A stretch of DNA of 23,634 nt from a virus: the IMG/VR virus record IMGVR_UViG_3300030101_002282, positions 2,421-26,054 of that record, one strand, 5' to 3'. Position 1 is the first letter of the stretch; each line of letters opens with the position of its first letter. A program made the translations under genes and the position numbers. The notes beneath the pieces are model-generated. The model made no database searches, was not told the origin of the DNA, and saw only the letters and a program-made list of their open reading frames with translations. Below are positions 13,171 through 23,634 of this stretch, in pieces.

Positions 13171-13330
13171 TTAAAAACCAAGAGAATCTCTCTTGCTCCT
13201 GTTTTATTTCATCTAGAAAAGTTGAGTTTAATTGTTCTTTCATTAAGGTCAACGCTCTATTGATTTGTTTTTGGTTTGAAAAATCATATTCTTCTTTTGG
13301 TTCCGGTATTCTTACAGTTACTTTAGCCAT
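13163..13330 (-). CDS. 55-aa conserved small phage protein
   Basis: An ATG at 13330 opens a 55-codon frame ending in TAA at 13163-13165. The product starts MAKVTVRIPEPKEEYDF, continues with a charged helical segment (LTLMKEQLN, EIKQEQERF) and ends FSWFLSG. The pattern VTVRIPEPKEEYD is one I recall from small marine-phage proteins between the nozzle-like gene and the small beta-rich gene. It overlaps the 650-aa stop in TAATG (13328-13332) and the next gene's GTG by 8 bases, so both junctions look coupled. Without it there would be a 159-base gap in a region that otherwise has none. The function is unknown. Confidence 0.7.
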   Translation of the reverse strand: MAKVTVRIPEPKEEYDFSNQKQINRALTLMKEQLNSTFLDEIKQEQERFSWFLSG

Positions 13331-15282
13331 TATCTTCTACCGTCCGGTTGTATATCTAATCTTAATGTGCCAAATCTCCAAGACTCACTAGTTGCATCAT
13401 TTGCTATTTTCACACTAGCAAATCTACCTCTAGCTCTTGTATCTTTTTTCTGTGTTGTGGATGTAATAGTAAAAGGACTATATGTAGAATTAGATGATGT
13501 ATCTTGAGGATATCTTTTTAATCCAATAGTTACTTTTGCATTACCTAACAATGTTTTAAAATCTGGTATAAATCTTCTCATAGCTATAAATATTTCTCCT
13601 GCAACTTTAGGGCCAGCACTTCTACCTTGTGCGTCTTTTGATCTTTGTTCAAGATCAAAGTCAAATGATTGTATAAAAGATGTAACAGTAGTAGTTGTAC
13701 CATTTGGATTTACTTGATCTGTACCTACTTCATGTTCAAAATAAGTTGTTTGACCTAAACCAGTTTGACCAACTATTACAGGAAACGTACCACTAGCAGA
13801 AGAATCATATTTAGTTGCATATGGATTTTTATATATTGTGGCATCCATCCAACTTGTTCTTGCTTCTGTTCCTGTATACCAAACACCACCTCTCACACCT
13901 GCTGATTCACCAAAATTAAATACAACATATTTATCATTGTAGTCTGAACTAGCTGAAGGATAATACCAAGTAATTTCTGTAAATAGATTATTTAAACCTG
14001 CTGCAACCTGCTGTCCTTTTGTAGTATCAAAATTGTCAAATACAAAGTCCTCAACAGTACACGGTAGTGATTTTACTGTACCATCATAAAGAAAAAAACC
14101 TTTTGGACTTAACCAAAAAGCTGCACCATCTATTTCAATAACAGCATTTTGTCCAATTAATCCACAGTTAGTACCAACTTGTTCAACAGCAAATGTGAAT
14201 GGTGCACCAATAAATTTCATTGTGTACAATGCATTATCAGTCCATATCAAAATAACTTCTTTTGCTTTTAATGCACCCATGATTTTTGTGCCATCTTGTA
14301 ATCTTTGTGTTCCAGCTGTGTTTGTTGCTGATGGTAAAAATGTATTAATATCTTCTTGATCAGAAAATCTTATAAACATATCATCTTGTGTTCCTGTGTT
14401 TCCAATAGTTGTTTCTGTTCCAAGATGTATTAAGTGTCTTGTTGTTGGTGATATTAAACTAACTCTAGTTTTTGTTGGATTGTTTGTTGTTTCAAAACTT
14501 GTAGTAGTTGTAGATGCACGTGTTGTTAATCTCTGTGATATACCCGAGTTCCATGTAAATGTTTTACCATTTAATATTGTTGCAACCAATACCTCACCAA
14601 AATTGTCTAGTGACCATAACCCAGGTTCTAGTGTAACATCAGATGCAGCCGCTGCCTCACCCCAGTTACCATTACCGTATGGGTCCATACCCCAACCATA
14701 ACCATAAGTCTGTTCTCTTGGTCCTACTGGCTCGTATGGTTTTATACTTAGACTACCACCTGTTGATACAGTTCCACTAGCATTGCTAGATTGATTGATT
14801 GTAAATGTTCCTGTTGTTGGCACAGATATGACTTGAAAATTTTTATCTTCAAAGTCAGCATCATTAAAACCTGTACCACCAGGCAGTGTCACAGAATCTA
14901 GTTGCACTATATCTCCAACCTTTAAACCATGAGCTGCTTTTGTGATTGTACAAGTTGGTGATCCATTTGTTGTTGCAATTGTTGCTGATGTTAATGTGGC
15001 TTTTAAAGGTGTAATGTCATATAATTGACCTTCAAAATAAATAAGTAAAAATTTATCTGATCCAAGAGCCACGTATCTATTACCATCGTTATCTACGAAA
15101 GCATGTTGTTTTCTAACTACACCAGAAATAGTGTCAGTAGTTAGTGATGCCCAACCGCCAACTTTTTCTGGTAGACCATATCTAAATCTTACGTTATCAG
15201 AATCAACCCAACGATTTTCTGCACCCGCTGGTGTATCTTGTTTATCTATTCCAGGTCTAAAATTAAACTCAACGAGAGCCAC
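13330..15282 (-). CDS. Tail nozzle-like protein (T7 gp12 / P22 gp10-type)
   Basis: This 650-aa protein starts at GTG 15282, fixed by AGGAG at 15290-15294, seven bases away. The N-terminus, FRPGIDKQDTPAGAENRW then VRFRYGLPEKVGGW, and the C-terminus, RARGRFASVKI then SWRFGTLRLDIQPDGRR, match a pattern common to podovirus tail nozzle and stabilising proteins. The interior has repeated beta-strand blocks suited to a beta-propeller. One of them, ILIWTDNALYTMKF then FWLSPKGFFLYDG, resembles the P22 gp10 blades by eye. Such proteins close the head after packaging and carry the tail fibres, consistent with the fibre genes upstream. I also see a Thr-rich insert near 100-170. The assignment is by pattern, not alignment. 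A different tail-tube protein is possible. Confidence 0.6.
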   Translation of the reverse strand: MALVEFNFRPGIDKQDTPAGAENRWVDSDNVRFRYGLPEKVGGWASLTTDTISGVVRKQHAFVDNDGNRYVALGSDKFLLIYFEGQLYDITPLKATLTSATIATTNGSPTCTITKAAHGLKVGDIVQLDSVTLPGGTGFNDADFEDKNFQVISVPTTGTFTINQSSNASGTVSTGGSLSIKPYEPVGPREQTYGYGWGMDPYGNGNWGEAAAASDVTLEPGLWSLDNFGEVLVATILNGKTFTWNSGISQRLTTRASTTTTSFETTNNPTKTRVSLISPTTRHLIHLGTETTIGNTGTQDDMFIRFSDQEDINTFLPSATNTAGTQRLQDGTKIMGALKAKEVILIWTDNALYTMKFIGAPFTFAVEQVGTNCGLIGQNAVIEIDGAAFWLSPKGFFLYDGTVKSLPCTVEDFVFDNFDTTKGQQVAAGLNNLFTEITWYYPSASSDYNDKYVVFNFGESAGVRGGVWYTGTEARTSWMDATIYKNPYATKYDSSASGTFPVIVGQTGLGQTTYFEHEVGTDQVNPNGTTTTVTSFIQSFDFDLEQRSKDAQGRSAGPKVAGEIFIAMRRFIPDFKTLLGNAKVTIGLKRYPQDTSSNSTYSPFTITSTTQKKDTRARGRFASVKIANDATSESWRFGTLRLDIQPDGRR

Positions 15283-15289
15283 AGTCTAG

Positions 15290-15294
15290 CTCCT
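15290..15294 (-). promoter_or_regulatory. Ribosome binding site fixing a GTG start
   Basis: AGGAG (read on the minus strand) lies seven bases before the GTG at 15282-15280 and overlaps the upstream gene's TAG stop at 15293-15295. It decides the non-ATG start of the nozzle-like gene. Confidence 0.7.
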
Positions 15295-16009
15295 ATATTT
15301 TATCTTTGTAAGCCCAACCTCTAGCAGTACTTACAAAAACTAATGTAAATGCTGACCCATTTACATTAACAACTAAGTTTGATGCTGAGCCTAAAATGTT
15401 GGAACCATTTCTGCCTATGGTTAAGTTGTTAGAATTAAAATTACCTGCTGAACCTCCACCATCAATAAAATGAACTTCTGCGCCAACGGAAGGTGATGAT
15501 GGTAATGTTACAGTTACAGGCGATGAACTTGTATCTACAATTACTTGATCATTTGCAACTGCAGTATAAGTACCATTAGTTGTTATGTACCCTCTTTCAA
15601 CAATACTTGAATTTACATTTGTGCCATCTGAATATAGTAAAGATTTTGATTTTACAGGTAATGATATTCCTGTGCCAGATACAGTTTTAAAAGTTAATGT
15701 AAATCTATTTGAAGTTCTATCTGTAGCATCTTCAACCACGTATACTCTTTCAACTGAATCTGGAACTGTTACAGTTCTGTTCGCCGCAAGAGTACCCGTT
15801 AGTTTTAGGTACAGGTTTTTACCATTTGATACAGCTCCATTAGAAATCGCTAATGCTTGATCAGACGATGCTACATCTATTGAGATGTAACCAGATGAGG
15901 CTTGTTCTAATTGCTGAAGATTGGTATTAGTTATAGTACCCCATGTACCTGACTTCTCACCAGTAGTCATTAATTCTAATTTTAAATTACTCGAAAATGT
16001 TGATGCCAT
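15293..16009 (-). CDS. Beta-rich tail fibre / adhesin-like protein
   Basis: This 238-aa protein has the start pattern LKLELMTTGEKSGTWGTITN (9-28). I recall it at the front of many marine-phage structural proteins, and the usual continuation LEQASSGYISIDV follows. The middle is Ser/Thr/Val-rich beta sheet with VPDSVERVYVVEDAT. The C-terminus (VEVHFIDGG-like GAEVHFIDGGGSAG, then NNLTIGRNGSNILG) looks like a fibre or receptor-contact beta domain. No enzymatic motif is seen. AGGAG at 16014-16018, four bases before the ATG, overlaps the stop of the 81-aa repeat protein. It lies between the repeat proteins and the nozzle-like gene. A distal tail protein bridging fibres and nozzle is plausible but is inference. 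Confidence 0.6.
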   Translation of the reverse strand: MASTFSSNLKLELMTTGEKSGTWGTITNTNLQQLEQASSGYISIDVASSDQALAISNGAVSNGKNLYLKLTGTLAANRTVTVPDSVERVYVVEDATDRTSNRFTLTFKTVSGTGISLPVKSKSLLYSDGTNVNSSIVERGYITTNGTYTAVANDQVIVDTSSSPVTVTLPSSPSVGAEVHFIDGGGSAGNFNSNNLTIGRNGSNILGSASNLVVNVNGSAFTLVFVSTARGWAYKDKI

Positions 16010-16016
16010 AATTCTC

Positions 16017-16262
16017 CTATGGGTTAAGTGGATCTATTGGGACCCACGTTTGCCCTGCGTTTGGATCTATTGGGTTCCATGATACCACAGAAACCGTGCC
16101 TAATGCAAGGTTAAATCTATTACCAGTCGGTTTAGCTCCAAATCCAACAGAGCTATTTCCAACGGCAATATTGACTCTTTGACCATTAGCAAGCACCACT
16201 ACATTCTGTATTCCTACGCCTGCAAAAGTTGTTGATGAAAAGGATGTTGCTCCAAAAAACAT
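16017..16262 (-). CDS. Short repeat protein, two-repeat paralogue of the 211-aa protein
   Basis: The start is taken as the ATG at 16262, giving 81 aa. GGAG at 16270-16273 lies seven bases upstream, and the resulting N-terminus MFFGATSFS matches MYFGATSFS of the next gene. A longer reading from 16292 would overlap that gene and lacks this support. The architecture mirrors the 211-aa paralogue: FGATSFSSTTFAGVG head, then two repeat units centred on ANGQRVNIAVG (25-35) and PTGNRFNLALG (45-55), then a tail with QTWVPIDP (71-78). Glycine-to-glycine spacing is 20 here rather than 22. It is probably a beta-structured, virion-exposed protein. No homologue of known function is recognised. Confidence 0.65.
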   Translation of the reverse strand: MFFGATSFSSTTFAGVGIQNVVVLANGQRVNIAVGNSSVGFGAKPTGNRFNLALGTVSVVSWNPIDPNAGQTWVPIDPLNP

Positions 16263-16263
16263 A

Positions 16264-16899
16264 TTATATCTCCGTCCAAACTTGAGTTGCATTTACCGGT
16301 ACCGCTTCCCATTTTCTGATTAATATATCAGATGTACCTACATTAAATCTATTACCAGATGGTAACACTTTAGACTTAGCTATTATAGTAACATCACTAG
16401 TTGCAATATTAAATCTCTTACCAGATACAATTGCTGTTGCATTTGCTTTAGTTGTTGCATTACCAAGAGCTATCTCAAAACCATTACCAGTAACTGATAG
16501 ATTACATTTACCAATTATTGTTACATCACCAGTTGCAAGATCTAATCCTTGACCTGTGATAGGTGGTTTAGACTTACCTTTGGTTATAACAGTTCCATTA
16601 CCTATCTCAAAACCATTACCTGTAACTGGTACATCTTTTGGTATAGAAGCTTGTGCATCACCTATACCTAATTCTAAACCATTACCTGTTAATATTTCTC
16701 TAGCTTTTGCAACAATCGTTACATCACTAGTTCCAATATTTACTCTATTACCTGTAACTGAAACATTTGCTTTACCGATGATTACATCATCACCGATAGC
16801 TACATTGATCCTTGATCCAAGGACATTAACGAATGCGTTAGGATTAAAGCCTACATCAGAGAAGGCTGCTGCCGAAAAGGAAGTAGCTCCAAAATACAT
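16264..16899 (-). CDS. 211-aa protein built of eight 22-residue repeats
   Basis: After a 22-residue head (MYFGATSFSAAAFSDVG) the protein is eight uninterrupted 22-residue units (23-198), then a 13-residue tail ending VWTEI. Each unit carries G-x-x-hydrophobic-[ND/E]-[IL] early, as in VTGNRVNIGTSDVTI, VTGNGFEIGNGTVI or PSGNRFNVGTSDILI, with a small or basic residue pair at the end. The strict length and alternating hydrophobics suggest a beta-solenoid or stacked beta hairpins. No cysteine-based or metal motif is seen. It starts 10 bases after the 347-aa gene and lies one base before the 81-aa paralogue. It is likely a fibre shaft, spacer or surface adhesin. This is not a family I recognise by name. 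Confidence 0.65.
   Translation of the reverse strand: MYFGATSFSAAAFSDVGFNPNAFVNVLGSRINVAIGDDVIIGKANVSVTGNRVNIGTSDVTIVAKAREILTGNGLELGIGDAQASIPKDVPVTGNGFEIGNGTVITKGKSKPPITGQGLDLATGDVTIIGKCNLSVTGNGFEIALGNATTKANATAIVSGKRFNIATSDVTIIAKSKVLPSGNRFNVGTSDILIRKWEAVPVNATQVWTEI
16270..16273 (-). promoter_or_regulatory. Ribosome binding site choosing the inner start
   Basis: GGAG on the minus strand, seven bases before the ATG at 16262, selects that ATG over the upstream in-frame start at 16292. It lies inside the last codons of the 211-aa gene. Confidence 0.65.
16306..16833 (-). repeat. Eight tandem 66-bp coding repeats
   Basis: Residues 23-198 of the 211-aa protein correspond to eight consecutive 66-bp units with no insertion or deletion between them. 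Units are diverged at the DNA level but keep phase. The repeated DNA words read TTACCAG or TTACCTG (16356, 16422, 16488 and similar) on the plus strand, spaced 66 bases apart. Confidence 0.75.
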
Positions 16900-16909
16900 G
16901 TGAGGCTAC

Positions 16910-17953
16910 CTAAAATGCAGTTACTGGAATATTATTAGTTCCTACTAATGATTGACCAAATGCCATAAATGCTATTGACTGACCAGAACCACTCCAAGCA
17001 TTTCCATTATTTCTAACCTTAATACCATTACTTACAAAATCAAATAAATCTGTATAATCATATTCTGCTGAATTAGCATCTGGAAAAAGGGCTTTTGATA
17101 CAGAATTAGCCGTATCTCTTTCTGAATCAACTAAGACCCAACTTGCAGTTATTGCTGTATTTTTAAGTAAAAGCCAACGTGGTTTAAACCCACAATATGC
17201 AAATGCACCATCAGCATTTCCATTACCTGTCCAACTACTAATTTTAGAATAACCTGTTTTTTCTACAAACACATAAGCAACATAAGTTCCACCAGAACCA
17301 TTTACCCCAGTATTTGTTCCAACTGAAAATACTGAAGATGTCGGTCCTGTACTATTCCATAAAGCACCACCACCACTTGTACTTACAGCATTTTGTTCGT
17401 TCAATGCTAAATATGCATCGTTATTGCCTAAAGCAGAATGATATATCCACCAAGTATCAGCACTATCTACTCTTTTAACAATTATCATTTTAGGAACTGC
17501 CCCTAATCCATGTGCAATAGTTCCAGCACTACCAGTACCTGACCATTTGTAAACTCCAAAACCAGATGTAGTATTTATTGAATAAGCTGATGGAGTTATT
17601 GTACCACCAGATATTCCAGATGCTGTTCCAGCTTTCCAATTCCATGAAACATAAGTTCCTCCACTTTCATTATAACCACTACCAGCATAATCTCCTTGAA
17701 AATTAAAACCGCTTCCGCTAACTGTTCCTATTCCATTTGGTTCACTACCTAATGCAACACTTCTATCTGGTGATAATCTATTACCAAAACTATTTACAAT
17801 ATCTTGAGCCGCATGGTTTGCACTACTATTTCTTCGTTTTACCCATATCCAATCAGCTTGAAAAGGTAAAGAGATTGTTTGTTGAGAACCTGTGCCTGAC
17901 CAAGTTGCTGTTGTAAAATAATCTGTAGATTTATTAATTGTTGTAAAAGCCAT
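16910..17953 (-). CDS. DUF7483-like fibre protein, copy 2 of the cassette
   Basis: This 347-aa, Gly/Ser/Thr-rich beta protein has no signal or membrane segment. Motifs include YVSWNWKAGT (101-110), GTIAHGLGAVPKMIIVKR (144-161), WNSTGPTSSVFSVG and YCGFKPRWLLLKN, then a C-terminal IAFMAFGQS. This is the pattern of the phage tail-fibre family I know as DUF7483. It is a clear paralogue of the 350-aa protein at 20503-21555, from MAF[TS]TI[NK]KS at the start to the last 30 residues. It lies one base after the LamG/SPRY gene and ends 10 bases before the repeat-protein gene. It likely forms a receptor-contact part of a fibre. The family function is not established. Confidence 0.75.
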   Translation of the reverse strand: MAFTTINKSTDYFTTATWSGTGSQQTISLPFQADWIWVKRRNSSANHAAQDIVNSFGNRLSPDRSVALGSEPNGIGTVSGSGFNFQGDYAGSGYNESGGTYVSWNWKAGTASGISGGTITPSAYSINTTSGFGVYKWSGTGSAGTIAHGLGAVPKMIIVKRVDSADTWWIYHSALGNNDAYLALNEQNAVSTSGGGALWNSTGPTSSVFSVGTNTGVNGSGGTYVAYVFVEKTGYSKISSWTGNGNADGAFAYCGFKPRWLLLKNTAITASWVLVDSERDTANSVSKALFPDANSAEYDYTDLFDFVSNGIKVRNNGNAWSGSGQSIAFMAFGQSLVGTNNIPVTAF

Positions 17954-17954
17954 C

Positions 17955-19325
17955 TTATAAATTTAATCCTTTTGTTGATAATGCAGTATATCCTGTTGGA
18001 ACATCATACTCAAATATTCCGTTATTGCTAGCATTAGTTCCTGCACTAGATATTGCTGAATCTCCAAAATAACCATTTCCAAAATTAACTGAACCTATTG
18101 CTTGTCCACTTCCTGAAAGATCTGATATAAAGAAAAACATTTCACCATGATTTTGCACATATTGAGCTGCGTTTGTAAATGATAAAACATTTCCAGTTGA
18201 AGATGTTGGATCTCCACTATTCATATAAGTTCCGTTTTTATGAAAAAATAATCTGTAGTTTTCCATATCTAAAGCTATACCTAAAACGTCTCCATCAGTA
18301 TATGATGCTCCACCACTTACATCTCCATTACTATCATAATAAACATTACCACTATAGTAATAAGAGACTGCAGCTTGGTTAGTATTACTATCTGGTGCAT
18401 TTGAAGATAAAAAAATATTTTTATTGCAAACTCCAACTGCAAGTCTTGATGCATCATTTGCTTTTACTTCACAATAAAATTTTCCACTTCCTTGTGTCAT
18501 TCCTAAAGTTGAAATAAAAAAACCTTTGTAGGAATTATTACCAGCTGTATTTAAAACTGTGTTACCTCTTTCTATTGTTGGACTATTGTTACCACCAAAT
18601 ACTGCTAAAGTATTTAATGTAGCAAAAATATTACTTGGATTATCCTCTGTTTTTGAAAGTGTACCACCACCAACCGTTAAATTATTACTTTGACCAGATT
18701 GGTCTGTAACTGAATTTCCATCTTTTAAAATAAAAAAGTTAAAATCACTTGAACCAGTATAACTAATACTAGGATTAGTATTTATTTTCCATTCTCCAGT
18801 TGTAGCATCTGTTGAACCAAATACTGTTTGTGCTAGTGCTTGATTATCCACTCTATGAAAATGAGACATTAACCCATCAAAATATTCTGCGCTATCTCCT
18901 CTTCTACCTATGTAAATTGGATAGTTTGAACCACCAACCCCAAAATATATATTTTGACTAGATGATGGATAAGTAGGAGAACCACTAAATGAAGTTTCTC
19001 TTACACCATTTACATATATTTTAACTCTATCTGTTGATGTACTATCAGTTGTGTCCCATGCTACAACTATATGATACCAAGCATTAATATCTCTAAATGC
19101 TCTAGTAGTGTTAATATCTACTTGCGCACTACCACCATCATAAGAAAAGAAACCTAAGGTATTATTGCTATTAAACCTCATCATACCAAAATTACTTCCA
19201 TCATACCATTCTGAATAAACATGTTGTTGTGAACTTAATCCACTTCTTTTTATCCATACAGAAATAGTACCTTTGGTTCTATTTCCTGCTGTTGGATTAG
19301 CTTTTGTTATATATGTACTAGCCAT
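17955..19325 (-). CDS. LamG-SPRY adhesin, copy 2 of the cassette
   Basis: The first about 170 residues of this 456-aa protein are a LamG/concanavalin-like jelly roll: SVWIKRSG (22-29), WYHIVVAWDTT (83-93), VKIYVNGVRE (101-110), FDGLMSHFHRVD (149-160). A linker with DQSGQSNNLTVGG (208-220) leads to a SPRY-like domain (about 265-418) with GKFYCEVKAN, DGDVLGIALDMENYRLFF (344-361) and INFG-type SVNFGNGYFG (412-421). It ends FEYDVPTGYTALSTKGLNL, the common C-terminal form of phage SPRY proteins. Such domains bind glycans or proteins, so receptor recognition on the host surface is likely. No catalytic residues are seen. Its paralogue is at 21564-22922. Its ATG overlaps the fibre gene stop in TAATG (19323-19327), with AGGAGG about 15 bases upstream. 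Confidence 0.8.
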   Translation of the reverse strand: MASTYITKANPTAGNRTKGTISVWIKRSGLSSQQHVYSEWYDGSNFGMMRFNSNNTLGFFSYDGGSAQVDINTTRAFRDINAWYHIVVAWDTTDSTSTDRVKIYVNGVRETSFSGSPTYPSSSQNIYFGVGGSNYPIYIGRRGDSAEYFDGLMSHFHRVDNQALAQTVFGSTDATTGEWKINTNPSISYTGSSDFNFFILKDGNSVTDQSGQSNNLTVGGGTLSKTEDNPSNIFATLNTLAVFGGNNSPTIERGNTVLNTAGNNSYKGFFISTLGMTQGSGKFYCEVKANDASRLAVGVCNKNIFLSSNAPDSNTNQAAVSYYYSGNVYYDSNGDVSGGASYTDGDVLGIALDMENYRLFFHKNGTYMNSGDPTSSTGNVLSFTNAAQYVQNHGEMFFFISDLSGSGQAIGSVNFGNGYFGDSAISSAGTNASNNGIFEYDVPTGYTALSTKGLNL

Positions 19326-20500
19326 TAGTTAAACTGCGCTCCTCCTGACGCACCGTGAGATATAATAATATTAAACTGACGGTCCGCTGTTTGGCCCTGC
19401 GCATCCGTTGCCCGTATCGTAAATGTATACGTTGTAGTTTGCGTCGAGCCTGATTCAGTACCAGTGATTGCACCCGTACTTGTATTTAAACTTGCACCAC
19501 CTGGAAGTGATCCAGATTGTACTCCGAAAGTTGTAGCATCTGTGGCTGCAACTGTAAAGTTTATAGTTCCTGTAGCTGCCACTGTTCCTAGATTTCCTGC
19601 AGCAGTTGTCCACGCAGGTGCATCAGATACAGTTAATAAAGCTGTTGCTGATCTACATGCGATACCATCATTGTTCTCTAATCTTAAAAAATATGTGCCA
19701 TCAACCGGTAAAGTAAAGTTTGCAGTTACAGATGTTGCACTTGAAAAAGATACAGAGTTTGCAGTAACGATAGCACCAGTAGATGAGTTGATTGCATCAA
19801 CAAAAGGTGGCGTAGAGCTGTCCTTAAAATTTGTACCAGTTATAACTATATTACCAGCGTTGTTATCAAGAACTGTTGGACTAATACCAGTAATAGTTGG
19901 AAAAGTAACACCATCAGCAAAACTTAAAACACCTGAACCATTGGTAGTTAGAGCCTGTCCATTTGTACCATCTGCTGCGGGCATCTTTAAAAAGACACCT
20001 GTGTTTAGATGTGTTGAATTATGTAATACGTAGTTACCCATGTTACCATGGTTAGAACATTGGTAGAATAAAACATTTGGTGTTGTCTTATCGACAGCTA
20101 TCTGTGTGTATGCTCCCGAGTTTCCTGGTGCAGGTGAATTACCTGTGTTAGTTACTCCGGTTGTGTACTCTGTTGTTTTTGCAGCATCAACATAAAATCT
20201 TAATGGGTGACCATTGTTTGATGAATCACTTTGATCAAATCTATAATAATATGGTTTAGAAGTATCCTGTCCTTTTAATTCTATTATAGGTGTCTGTATA
20301 CCATTGATATAATATCCAAGAGAACTACCAACACCAAAGTATGGTGAGTCGGCTGTCTTTGCAGTAACCTTAACCTCGTATACAAGTGGAGCAGTAGAAG
20401 AATAATACTTGCCCTGGAAACCTGCACCACCAGAATCTTTACTGATGATCAGATTACCATCTTGATCCTGTATCGTATCTACTTTTAATATACTACTCAT
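19325..20500 (-). CDS. Multidomain fibre with cupredoxin-like, IPT and He_PIG domains
   Basis: This 391-aa protein starts SSILKVDTIQDQDGN, a frequent phage fibre N-terminus. A beta domain (about 38-158) carries a possible type 1 copper ligand set: H98 in NGHPLRF and C148, H151, M154 in FYQCSNHGNMG. An IPT/TIG domain follows (about 201-292: PTITGISPTV, IVITGTNF, LTVSDAPAW), then a He_PIG/cadherin-like domain (about 295-381: VQSGSLPGGASLN, TFTIRATDAQGQTADR) and a GGAQFN end. The last two domains are paralogous to the partial protein at the right edge. The start follows the 350-aa stop by 2 bases. It probably forms a fibre arm carrying the cassette's adhesins. Copper binding is inferred from residues only. 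Confidence 0.78.
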   Translation of the reverse strand: MSSILKVDTIQDQDGNLIISKDSGGAGFQGKYYSSTAPLVYEVKVTAKTADSPYFGVGSSLGYYINGIQTPIIELKGQDTSKPYYYRFDQSDSSNNGHPLRFYVDAAKTTEYTTGVTNTGNSPAPGNSGAYTQIAVDKTTPNVLFYQCSNHGNMGNYVLHNSTHLNTGVFLKMPAADGTNGQALTTNGSGVLSFADGVTFPTITGISPTVLDNNAGNIVITGTNFKDSSTPPFVDAINSSTGAIVTANSVSFSSATSVTANFTLPVDGTYFLRLENNDGIACRSATALLTVSDAPAWTTAAGNLGTVAATGTINFTVAATDATTFGVQSGSLPGGASLNTSTGAITGTESGSTQTTTYTFTIRATDAQGQTADRQFNIIISHGASGGAQFN

Positions 20501-20502
20501 AA

Positions 20503-21555
20503 TTATCTTGCCGTTGCTGGTACTCCATTTGTTGTTTCATCAGCTACAAATGGCTCTTTAGCAAATGCCATAAATATATATGTTCCACCACTTTCATTGT
20601 GATTTGAATGTGACATTCTTAATTTAAGACCATTACTGTATAACTCTGAGTTTGTATTACTATCTGGTGAAGTTTCTGCGTTAGTATTATTTGCATACAA
20701 ATCTCGCCATTGACCATTAAAATCTCTTTTATGATCTCTCATTAACCAATCAGCAGTACCACTTATTTTTTTAGTCATAACCCAAGCTGGTTTAAAACCG
20801 CAATAAATAAATGGCCCATCTGTTGAGCCGTTACCAGTATACTTTCCAAATTTAGAAAATCCTTTTTTTTCTGTAAATGCATAAATTATATTTGGATAAC
20901 CATTTCCATTAACTGATGTATCAGTTCCTAATGTAATAACACTTGAAGTAGGTTCTGTATCATTCCAATGGTCTGCATAATCATTTAAAGCAGCATTTGT
21001 ATTTAAATATAAATAATCTGTTGCAGGGTCACTTGCAAACTTATCATGATAAACCGTAAAAGCAGCATTACTGTTTAATCTTTTTTGAATTATAAAATTT
21101 GGTTTAGCACCAAGTCCGTGTGCAATAGTTCCAACACTACCTGTACCTGTATATGCATATATTCCAAAACCTGCTGTGGTATTTATTGAATAACCAGTTG
21201 GAGTTATTGTACCACCAGATAAACCAGATGTTGTTCCTGCTTTCCAATTCCAAGACACATAAGTTTGTGAATTTTCATTTACTGCACCATTTGAACCAAC
21301 TGAGAACCCATCACTATCAAAAGCTGTTAAACTTTGTGCTTCTGTTGCTTCTGCATTAGCACTGTTACTTTCTAATTCTTTTGTTGCACCTCTAACTGCA
21401 TCTAAAAGTTTATGTGGAGAAGTTGAACTTCTTTCTTTTAGCCATACCCAATCTGGTTGGAAACCAACTCCTGTAATTGATTGTGATGATCCATTACCTG
21501 TGTAAAGGTTAACGTTAAAGTATTCGATTGATTTTTTAATTGTTGAAAAAGCCAT
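20503..21555 (-). CDS. DUF7483-like fibre protein, copy 1 of the cassette
   Basis: This 350-aa paralogue of the 347-aa protein has the same order of motifs: MAFSTIKKSIEYF, DWVWLKERSS (35-44), YVSWNWKAGTTSGLSGG (99-115), GTIAHGLGAKPNFIIQKR, WNDTEPTSSVITLG, FSKFGKYTGNGSTDGPFIYC and TYIFMAFAKEPF near the end. Divergence concentrates in residues 45-95 and in the segment after IIQKR, which would suit receptor-facing loops. The start follows the LamG/SPRY stop by 8 bases, with no strong Shine-Dalgarno (GGTAGAA). It is a structural fibre protein of the DUF7483 type. Family function is unproven. Confidence 0.75.
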   Translation of the reverse strand: MAFSTIKKSIEYFNVNLYTGNGSSQSITGVGFQPDWVWLKERSSTSPHKLLDAVRGATKELESNSANAEATEAQSLTAFDSDGFSVGSNGAVNENSQTYVSWNWKAGTTSGLSGGTITPTGYSINTTAGFGIYAYTGTGSVGTIAHGLGAKPNFIIQKRLNSNAAFTVYHDKFASDPATDYLYLNTNAALNDYADHWNDTEPTSSVITLGTDTSVNGNGYPNIIYAFTEKKGFSKFGKYTGNGSTDGPFIYCGFKPAWVMTKKISGTADWLMRDHKRDFNGQWRDLYANNTNAETSPDSNTNSELYSNGLKLRMSHSNHNESGGTYIFMAFAKEPFVADETTNGVPATAR

Positions 21556-21563
21556 ATTATATT

Positions 21564-22922
21564 CTACCCATAAGTATTTAAATTTTTTGTGTTTAATGCG
21601 TAATATCCAGATGGTACATCATATTCAAATAAACTTCCATTACCATTTGAACCTGCAGAAGCTATAGCTGTAGTGCCAAAAAATCCGTTACCAAAGTTTA
21701 TGCTTTGTTTATTACCATTTCCATAGACATCAAAAAATGGTTGGATTGGAGTACCAGCAGCAGGCCAAGATGCACTTAATTTACCATTTACACTTGTTCC
21801 TGGAAATGCTTGGTTATTATTACCACTACCATCTGCCCATGTGCTATCATTTGCACCACCATTTTTTGAAAAATAAATATTTCCATTAGTTATATCTAAT
21901 GCAACACTTATAATATCTCCTGCTGTATATGATGCCATATAAGTTGTAGAAGAGCCATTATAGTAAATTTCTCCGTTTTGGTGAATGTAAAATGCATCTG
22001 TGCCATAGTAGTAACTATTACTATGTGTTTTATCATTAGTAAAAAACATACCTAATCTATGACCAGTTGTATTTGCTACATCTATTTTCATTTCCCAATA
22101 CCACTTTCCTGTTTCAGGTGAAATAGTTCCAAATGTTTGTCTATTTTCATTATCACCACTCGCCATTGTTAAATTGCCGTTTGAAAATGTTGGCTTGTAT
22201 ACTCCACCACTTTGTTTTACTACATCATTAGGATTTAAAGTGCAGTAATTATTTGATGGTGTATCAAGTGATTGTATTAAATTTCCATTTTTTGTAAAAT
22301 TATTTGATTGACCTGAACTGTCTAAACCTAAATTACCAGAGTTTTCAAACTTTAAATGAAAACCATTTGTACCCCAAGTAACACCAGTTGGTGATTTAAA
22401 TTTCCAAATATTTGTTGCAGTATTTGTTTCACCAAATGCAGTTGGAGCCACAACACTTCCGTCAACAAAAGCTAGGTGACTTATGTTTCCTTCAAATTGA
22501 TCTGCGTTATTAGAGTTATCACCAATAGTATGTGCAAGAGCTGAACCTAATCTTAAAACATAATCTTGTGAAGGATAACTTGTATCATTAAATTCAGTTT
22601 CTTGTGATCCATTTACCCATAGTTTAATTCTATCAGCAGCTGTTGCTTGTGTAGTATCAAATTGAACAACGATGTGATAAAATGCTGATGGGTCTCTAAA
22701 CAATCTTTTAGTTGTTACAAAGTATTGTTGAGAACTTACTTTTTCAAAAAATGAAAATCTATCTGCACTATTAAATCTTATATCTGCTCTATTGTTGGAG
22801 TCTGTGTATGTGCTAAAAATAGAACCATCACCACCTATATCAGATCTTTTTACCCACATGGATAAAGTAAATTTTTTGTTTCCAGTTGGTGTTGAAAATG
22901 TATGTGTTAATGTACTTGCCAT
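21564..22922 (-). CDS. LamG-SPRY adhesin, copy 1 of the cassette
   Basis: This 452-aa paralogue of the 456-aa protein has an N-terminal LamG-like domain with LSMWVKRSDIG (20-30), FYHIVVQFDTT (81-91), IKLWVNGSQE (99-108) and FEGNISHLAFVDGS (143-156). The linker holds DSSGQSNNFTKNG (201-213). The SPRY-like domain is about 268-425, with GKWYWEMKI (272-280), GDIISVALDITNGNIYFSKNG (335-355) and INFGNGFFG. It ends FEYDVPSGYYALNTKNLN. The domain order, linker and ending are the same as in copy 2, while loops differ widely. It likely recognises host surface glycans or proteins. AGGA about 9 bases before the ATG supports the start, and the fibre stop lies 9 bases upstream. No active-site residues are seen. 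Confidence 0.8.
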   Translation of the reverse strand: MASTLTHTFSTPTGNKKFTLSMWVKRSDIGGDGSIFSTYTDSNNRADIRFNSADRFSFFEKVSSQQYFVTTKRLFRDPSAFYHIVVQFDTTQATAADRIKLWVNGSQETEFNDTSYPSQDYVLRLGSALAHTIGDNSNNADQFEGNISHLAFVDGSVVAPTAFGETNTATNIWKFKSPTGVTWGTNGFHLKFENSGNLGLDSSGQSNNFTKNGNLIQSLDTPSNNYCTLNPNDVVKQSGGVYKPTFSNGNLTMASGDNENRQTFGTISPETGKWYWEMKIDVANTTGHRLGMFFTNDKTHSNSYYYGTDAFYIHQNGEIYYNGSSTTYMASYTAGDIISVALDITNGNIYFSKNGGANDSTWADGSGNNNQAFPGTSVNGKLSASWPAAGTPIQPFFDVYGNGNKQSINFGNGFFGTTAIASAGSNGNGSLFEYDVPSGYYALNTKNLNTYG

Positions 22923-22931
22923 AATATTATC

Positions 22932-23634
22932 CTACGGGTTAAACTGCCCTGAGTTGTTAGCTGCAAAAAGAAATGTTAAACTAAACGCTCGGTCAGCAGT
23001 TTGTCCCTCAGCATCTGTTGCTCGAATAGTAAAGTTAAACGTTGTATCCGCTGAAGCACCAGATTCAGTTCCAGTCAATGTAGACGATCCTGAGCCACTA
23101 TTCAATGTAATTCCACCAGGTAGTGATCCTGATTGTACAGTCATACCTGTTGAATTTGTTGCTGTTAAAGTTATTGTTCCAATATTTGATCCACCAGAAA
23201 ATGAACCTAATGACCCTGCTGCTGTTTGCCAAGCAGGTGCGTCTGATACTGTTAATAGTGCTCCAGTTTGAACTGCGTTACCATCTGGATTCTCTACATA
23301 TAATTTGTAACTTGCATCAACTGAAATAGTAAATTTAGCTGTAATACTTGTAGCTGATGTAAATGATACTTCATCCGCTACAAATTGTGCACCTGTAGTT
23401 GAGTTAATTGCTGTAACTAACGGAACAGATACAAAATTAGTTCCTGTAATAACAACTGATGTTTGTGTATTTTCAATCGCTGAAGGACTAATACCTGATA
23501 CTGTTGGTCTTACTTCAGTTGTTAAAGTAATAGATCCACCAAGGGCTACTGCTTGACCGTTGATTGTAATTTGTCCTGATCCTTGTAACGCTGCGTTTGC
23601 AACAGAAGTATTTGGTAAAGCAATACTTGCACCA
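22932..23634 (-). CDS. Fibre protein with IPT and He_PIG domains (partial, N-terminus missing)
   Basis: The frame is open from the right edge to the TAG at 22932-22934, giving 233 residues with the N-terminus outside the window. The visible part starts with a short Gly/Ser segment (ITINGQAVALGG). An IPT/TIG domain follows (PTVSGISPSAIEN, VVITGTNF, LTVSDAPAW), then a He_PIG/cadherin-like domain (VQSGSLPGGITLN, FTIRATDAEGQTADR) and the ending NNSGQFNP. Both domains match the C-terminal half of the 391-aa protein closely. The segment before the IPT domain does not resemble that protein, so whether this copy has a cupredoxin-like domain is unknown. It begins the first cassette copy and precedes the 452-aa gene by 9 bases. 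Confidence 0.75.
   Translation of the reverse strand, partial: GASIALPNTSVANAALQGSGQITINGQAVALGGSITLTTEVRPTVSGISPSAIENTQTSVVITGTNFVSVPLVTAINSTTGAQFVADEVSFTSATSITAKFTISVDASYKLYVENPDGNAVQTGALLTVSDAPAWQTAAGSLGSFSGGSNIGTITLTATNSTGMTVQSGSLPGGITLNSGSGSSTLTGTESGASADTTFNFTIRATDAEGQTADRAFSLTFLFAANNSGQFNP

Follow-up and report, generated by a model that had tools for sequence, protein, structure and literature searches.

The window (the whole 23,634-nucleotide stretch analyzed here, positions 2,421 to 26,054 of IMG/VR virus record IMGVR_UViG_3300030101_002282) ends at its right edge with the 26,054-nt record itself, beyond which nothing is readable. It contains six open reading frames (ORFs), all on the minus strand, in which a fiber gene with a He_PIG domain, a LamG+SPRY gene and a DUF7483 gene follow one another in two tandem units (Table 1). 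An earlier note on this DNA had described this order as occurring twice in the same orientation, in units of about 3.6 kb, and the six ORFs lie as it stated: the spacing is 3,602 nt from DUF7483 gene to DUF7483 gene (21555-17953) and 3,597 nt between the LamG+SPRY genes. Pairwise alignment within the window bears out its pairing of the proteins, with clear homology for the DUF7483 proteins (347/350 aa; 43% identity, E = 2e-91), the LamG+SPRY proteins (456/452 aa; 36%, E = 8e-68) and the fiber C-termini (391/233 aa; 50%, E = 1e-56). Its description of two complete, different sets stands as far as the difference is concerned (36-50% identity), but not for completeness: the upstream fiber is truncated by the record end. 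Judged from its homologue in the sister contig L024 (IMGVR_UViG_3300029309_000580), which begins MSEVKVNKVSPRSGT, this fiber would start about 30 codons further up.

Table 1. Genes of the two cassettes and of their downstream flank, in window coordinates.
Feature	Position	Strand	Basis
Slot-2 fiber gene, 3' part only, IPT-like/He_PIG C-terminal domain	22932..23634	-	Open frame 22932-23633; He_PIG 30 bits
Slot-2 LamG+SPRY adhesin, 452 aa	21564..22922	-	Pairwise match; Pfam domains; AlphaFold2 pLDDT 85.6
Slot-2 DUF7483 protein, 350 aa, three internal repeats	20503..21555	-	Pairwise match; Pfam; AlphaFold2 pLDDT 91.7
Slot-1 fiber, 391 aa, N-terminus MSSILKVDTIQDQDGNLIISKDSGG, C-terminal He_PIG domain	19325..20500	-	98% aa identity in L024
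Slot-1 LamG+SPRY adhesin, 456 aa	17955..19325	-	48%-identical allele in its place in sister contig L024
Slot-1 DUF7483 protein, 347 aa	16910..17953	-	99% aa identity in L024
R211, 211-aa repeat protein, downstream flank	16264..16899	-	Trails the array in relatives
91-aa protein with repeats similar to R211, downstream flank	16017..16292	-	R211-type matches at the same place in relatives
T238, 238-aa tail protein, downstream flank	15293..16009	-	phrog_31104; 100% aa in L024
T650, 650-aa virion protein, downstream flank	13330..15282	-	phrog_3287; 64% to 023Pt_psg01; 100% aa in L024

Domain matches all exceed the curated cut-offs. The two DUF7483 proteins score 312 and 371 bits against PF24299 (Pfam cut-off 27 bits), covering model positions 1-327 and 2-330 of 330, and the two LamG+SPRY proteins score 61.3/40.1 and 51.2/38.3 bits for Laminin_G_3/SPRY; the same holds for He_PIG. 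T4 Gp10-like XD/TD domains were not found in the six proteins by Pfam and PHROGs scans. AlphaFold2 models of the slot-2 DUF7483 and LamG/SPRY proteins have the pLDDT values listed in Table 1. In the latter protein the SPRY half resembles solved SPRY domains, for example those of DDX1 and Ash2L. DUF7483 is made up of three repeats that are homologous to one another (hhalign probability 98%), and structure and sequence comparison gave no convincing solved relative: neither the best structure match, an engineered single-chain adiponectin trimer (probability 0.44), nor the best sequence match to a solved protein, CanA (E = 0.007), was convincing. Speculatively, the predicted model could represent a single-chain, three-part cap that fits a trimeric fiber. 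Elsewhere, LamG, SPRY and DUF7483 are fused in one protein (SS120-1, L318, 5612-7957; MEP301, L320, 5648-8014; C72C1, L317, 249-4673), which supports the idea that these domains work together. In phage Greip (L319, MT375525; 7001-8071), the DUF7483 gene bears the label of a SprT-like protease, which is probably wrong.

The nearest relatives of T650 are found in 023Pt_psg01 (64%), HTVC027P (50%) and HTVC023P (48%), and the window therefore appears, by protein similarity, to have the backbone of an HTVC023P-type Pelagibacter (SAR11) podovirus, from which we infer SAR11 as the host. The DUF7483 cassette is absent from all three of these phages. The 211-aa and 91-aa proteins next to T238 (16017-16899) are built from repeated TGNxxxIxxG motifs and their ORFs share a 29-nt overlap; they possibly form a repeat-built fiber.

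Profiles made from the window's own proteins were used to search a set of 306 contigs or regions, in which pieces of the same contig had been merged where they overlapped. In relatives, conserved genes border the array. Those on its upstream side are an SU10-type adaptor and two small genes, and those on its downstream side R211, T238 and T650. The full-locus set comprised 32 sequences spanning the upstream small gene to T650, L108m being left out as fragmented. Across the whole locus, three cassettes are present in 16 of 31 other sequences, two in 5, one in 3 and none in 7 (023Pt_psg01 and HTVC023P among them), counts that differ from population frequencies, as contigs were picked by similarity to the window, and that comprise fewer independent arrays, given near-duplicates such as L103m/L105m and L072m/L273. 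By this comparison, what the window shows is the downstream portion of a locus whose flanks are conserved and which holds as many as three slots.

Each slot has its own type of fiber N-terminus: MSSILKVDTIQDQ in slot 1, MSEVKVNKVSPRSGT in slot 2 and MSxxEVxKIIPQSGT in slot 3. Of the 820 pairs within slot 1, 704 have matching N-termini; between slots 1 and 2, this holds for 24 of 964 pairs. The mutual resemblance of slots 2 and 3 is higher. The nearest neighbor comes from the same slot for 80 of 87 fibers (N35), 61 of 84 LamG/SPRY proteins and 57 of 83 DUF7483 proteins. Slot labels change 7 times on the fiber tree (36 when shuffled), 19 times on the LamG/SPRY tree (38.5) and 27 times on the DUF7483 tree (38.8), the trees being quick ones, made from divergent proteins, whose single branches are unreliable. 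Tree changes and N-terminal matches thus point to fibers that belong to slots and to adhesins that keep only a partial slot preference. Because both adhesins retain some preference, their exchange between slots is not free. Three sequences (L112, L127 and L155) form a second clade with three cassettes and other slot-specific fiber N-termini (MTTKIK or MAKTK; MAYIGRGT or MAYVGRGT; MAYIGNRP or MAYIGTAP), and fiber docks are therefore not universal.

In slot 3 of L024, the fiber has the slot-3 N-terminus and a different C-terminal domain; the next gene encodes a LamG protein of 434 aa, and there is no DUF7483 gene. Upstream of the window there may accordingly be a slot-3 fiber gene carrying another kind of payload. 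A third cassette of the DUF7483 type directly upstream was considered and rejected, as L024 (T650 100%) differs in payload at this place. Tandem paralogous structural proteins are also seen in 023Pt_psg01 (three; L083, 12472-16679) and in HTVC023P (four; L084, 6242-11938); they start with slot-like N-termini and, in 023Pt_psg01, have Gly_rich_2 ends. The slot-3 or slot-like N-termini in these three sequences suggest that the fiber dock may outlast its payload.

With T650 identity serving as a clock for the backbone, fibers and T238 track backbone identity, unlike the adhesins. Among pairs with T650 identities of 60 to 95%, median identity is about 37-47% for LamG/SPRY and about 41-52% for DUF7483, irrespective of the backbone, adhesin identity staying close to 40/45% across most backbone identities; among pairs above 99%, some have all alleles in common and others none. 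In one such pair (L252 and L103m; T650 99%, T238 100%), the fibers are 97, 88 and 96% identical and all six adhesins 40-49%. Adhesins thus diverge between near-identical backbones, as in hypervariable host-recognition regions. The comparison of the window with L024, whose T650 and T238 are identical in amino acid sequence, resolves this divergence to single genes. There are no mismatches from 17,435 to 17,944, the first falling at 17,945, no more than nine bases into the DUF7483 gene (start 17,953); the slot-1 fiber gene (20,500-19,325) differs at 18 of 1,176 positions (98.5% nucleotide identity); and between these near-identical neighbors the LamG/SPRY proteins are only 48% identical. Past the fiber gene, identity is lost once more at 20,505, where the slot-2 DUF7483 gene ends. 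On these alignments, the difference reads as allele replacement with edges at gene ends. A diversity-generating retroelement is an improbable source of this variation, since whole-gene replacement does not fit it; no reverse transcriptase was found among the window proteins scanned, which come from an incomplete genome.

Conserved ends with divergent middles, as the earlier note had observed, are indeed a feature of these genes, the ends being better conserved than most interiors. Pairwise identity is about 60-69% over the last 45 residues of LamG/SPRY proteins, compared with 13-20% in their most variable blocks, and 66% over the first 30 nt of their genes, compared with 43% for the following 30. 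These ends may well serve as recombination joints. Alleles also recur across slots and backbones: the DUF7483 protein in slot 3 of L120/L122 is 94% identical to that in slot 1 of L252, and slot 2 of L257 and slot 3 of L271 encode DUF7483 proteins with 90% identity at a T650 identity of 74%.

Two full cassettes are also present in the cultured Pelagibacter phages HTVC103P and HTVC104P. Between the two isolates, the fibers are 92 and 69% identical, the LamG/SPRY proteins 47 and 45% and the DUF7483 proteins 57 and 42%, and neighboring genes mostly 64-98%, with one pair (gp55/gp53) at just 36%. Both phages infect HTCC7211 with different alleles in both slots, and a difference in alleles therefore need not mean a different host strain. 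Because these isolates show a similar pattern, assembly chimeras can be rejected as the sole cause and an assembly artifact is unlikely, although the problem could still apply to individual contigs, L024 for example.

The whole is best explained, in our judgment with good though not compelling probability, by up to three fiber docks bearing exchangeable receptor-binding tips. Each fiber would be docked at its own place on the tail by its slot-specific N-terminus and would share with the other slots an IPT/He_PIG C-terminus, at whose tip the LamG+SPRY and DUF7483 proteins would sit as adhesins. DUF7483 is a likely receptor-binding tip in view of its position, its phage tail annotation and its variability. 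Fibers would remain with slot and backbone, while the two adhesin genes would be exchanged singly by homologous recombination between co-infecting phages, the conserved gene ends acting as joints, such that near-identical phages would come to carry different adhesin combinations. One virion would then display several receptor-binding tips, with two or three specificities side by side. The earlier note had suggested that two adhesin sets could build heterotypic fibers or keep two receptor specificities; both suggestions we likewise infer. More tentatively, and with somewhat less than even confidence, near-identical SAR11 phages might have a large allele pool for LamG/SPRY and DUF7483 in common, from which each genome would draw up to six into three dock-specific fibers by gene-precise recombination, giving each virion its own combination of tips.

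The alternative that survives best, which we consider unlikely, holds that the slots encode fixed heteromeric fibers (for example inner and outer ones) of a single receptor system, the variability reflecting escape from changes of the host surface, not several simultaneous specificities. Slot-specific N-termini, the residual slot preference of both adhesins and the growth of HTVC103P and HTVC104P on one host strain would all suit such fibers, but the same alleles turn up in different slots, entire payload classes are swapped inside one slot and the number of cassettes varies from one to three per phage.

Less probable still is the origin proposed in the earlier note, namely that the cassette was tandemly duplicated in this phage lineage and then diverged. 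Shared order, orientation and 3.6-kb spacing, a 234-nt repeat at 76% and the clear homology of the paired proteins are what a duplication would leave, but the identity of the copies (43 and 36%) is at the family background between phages: median identity within phages is 43.7% for DUF7483 and 37.5% for LamG+SPRY, compared with 44-45% and 37% between phages. Nor do the copies of one phage group together on the trees, over which they are scattered (75 changes of phage label on the DUF7483 tree, 75.5 when shuffled). The slot-2 genes of the window are much closer to those of L091 (LamG/SPRY 93%, DUF7483 63%), in which both slot-1 adhesins are only 41-45% identical to the window's, and edges of identity coincide with genes. 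A recent tandem duplication is thus rejected, since a copy is about as close to homologues from other phages as to its partner in the same phage, and similarity at this background therefore indicates, as far as sequence identity can tell, paralogy within one family. An ancient duplication is possible as the founder of the slots. As they stand, the data favor fixed fiber slots with independently exchanged adhesin alleles.

Alternating expression from an invertible or phase-variable system, with one set active at a time, is very improbable: its support comes from HTVC200P, in which one DUF7483 gene is inverted and two LamG/DUF7483 junctions carry a 58-nt inverted repeat, but the window genes all lie on one strand almost end to end, contigs with two to three sets are same-strand with the exception of HTVC200P, and an invertible switch in the window was rejected as no long inverted repeat was found within its array. 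In HTVC200P itself (L088, MH598801; 9384-11991), the repeat is 95% complementary and a 168-nt segment comprising a fiber end and a LamG start is duplicated at 98%; this suggests that the region was rearranged recently or, possibly, that it contains an invertible segment.

The reading as fiber docks with exchangeable tips has parallels in known systems. Ackermannviridae have exchangeable multi-protein receptor complexes in the form of branched tail spikes (TSP1-4), and phiKp24 is another phage with several receptor-binding proteins (PMC11414711). As read from sequence, the array may resemble these systems: a phage has several candidate receptor-binding proteins, the slot-specific fiber N-termini and hypervariable adhesins would be the counterparts of conserved assembly domains at the N-terminus and of variable receptor ends, and whole genes are exchanged. 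Unlike in Ackermannviridae, its anchor, LamG/SPRY and DUF7483 adhesins are separate genes from other fold families, and the unit of exchange is one adhesin gene. Hypervariable host-recognition regions, or metaviromic islands, that include lectin proteins have been described in marine phages (Mizuno 2014, PMC3909814; Skadi, PMC10504331), and there too tail-fiber and lectin-like genes vary between otherwise similar phages, pelagiphages included. The evidence in those reports is low read recruitment at a single region, whereas the array can be divided into as many as three slots, each with its own type of fiber, and shows allele replacement that is precise to the gene.

Single fiber-LamG/SPRY-DUF7483 modules are common to many other pelagiphages. 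HTVC011P, HTVC121P, HTVC204P, Skadi-4 and Greip share the order of fiber C-terminal domain, LamG+SPRY and DUF7483, but have one module behind one tail fiber, whereas the array has two or three, each with its own short fiber. HTVC103P and HTVC104P, with two full cassettes, come closer; they differ in two extra genes (106 aa and about 430 aa) between the sets and in their backbone, and their cassette genes are annotated only as hypothetical proteins. A literature search, with most subscription journals outside its reach, found no paper naming DUF7483, none on marine phages that combines tail fibers with LamG and SPRY, and none naming what SAR11 phages bind; the words tail fiber, LamG, SPRY and lectin are absent from the main text of an 80-genome survey of HTVC023P-type phages (PMC9599517). 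Provisionally, then, we regard the array as new, in the sense that a multi-slot locus with gene-precise swaps is a variant on the known hypervariable host-recognition regions.

The array offers matched natural experiments, in which near-identical backbones differ in single adhesin genes, and it marks DUF7483, a functionally uncharacterized domain, as a likely receptor-binding tip. SAR11 bacteria rank among the ocean's most abundant cells, and the array suggests a way in which several receptor-binding tips could be borne by one small podovirus and re-dealt gene by gene.
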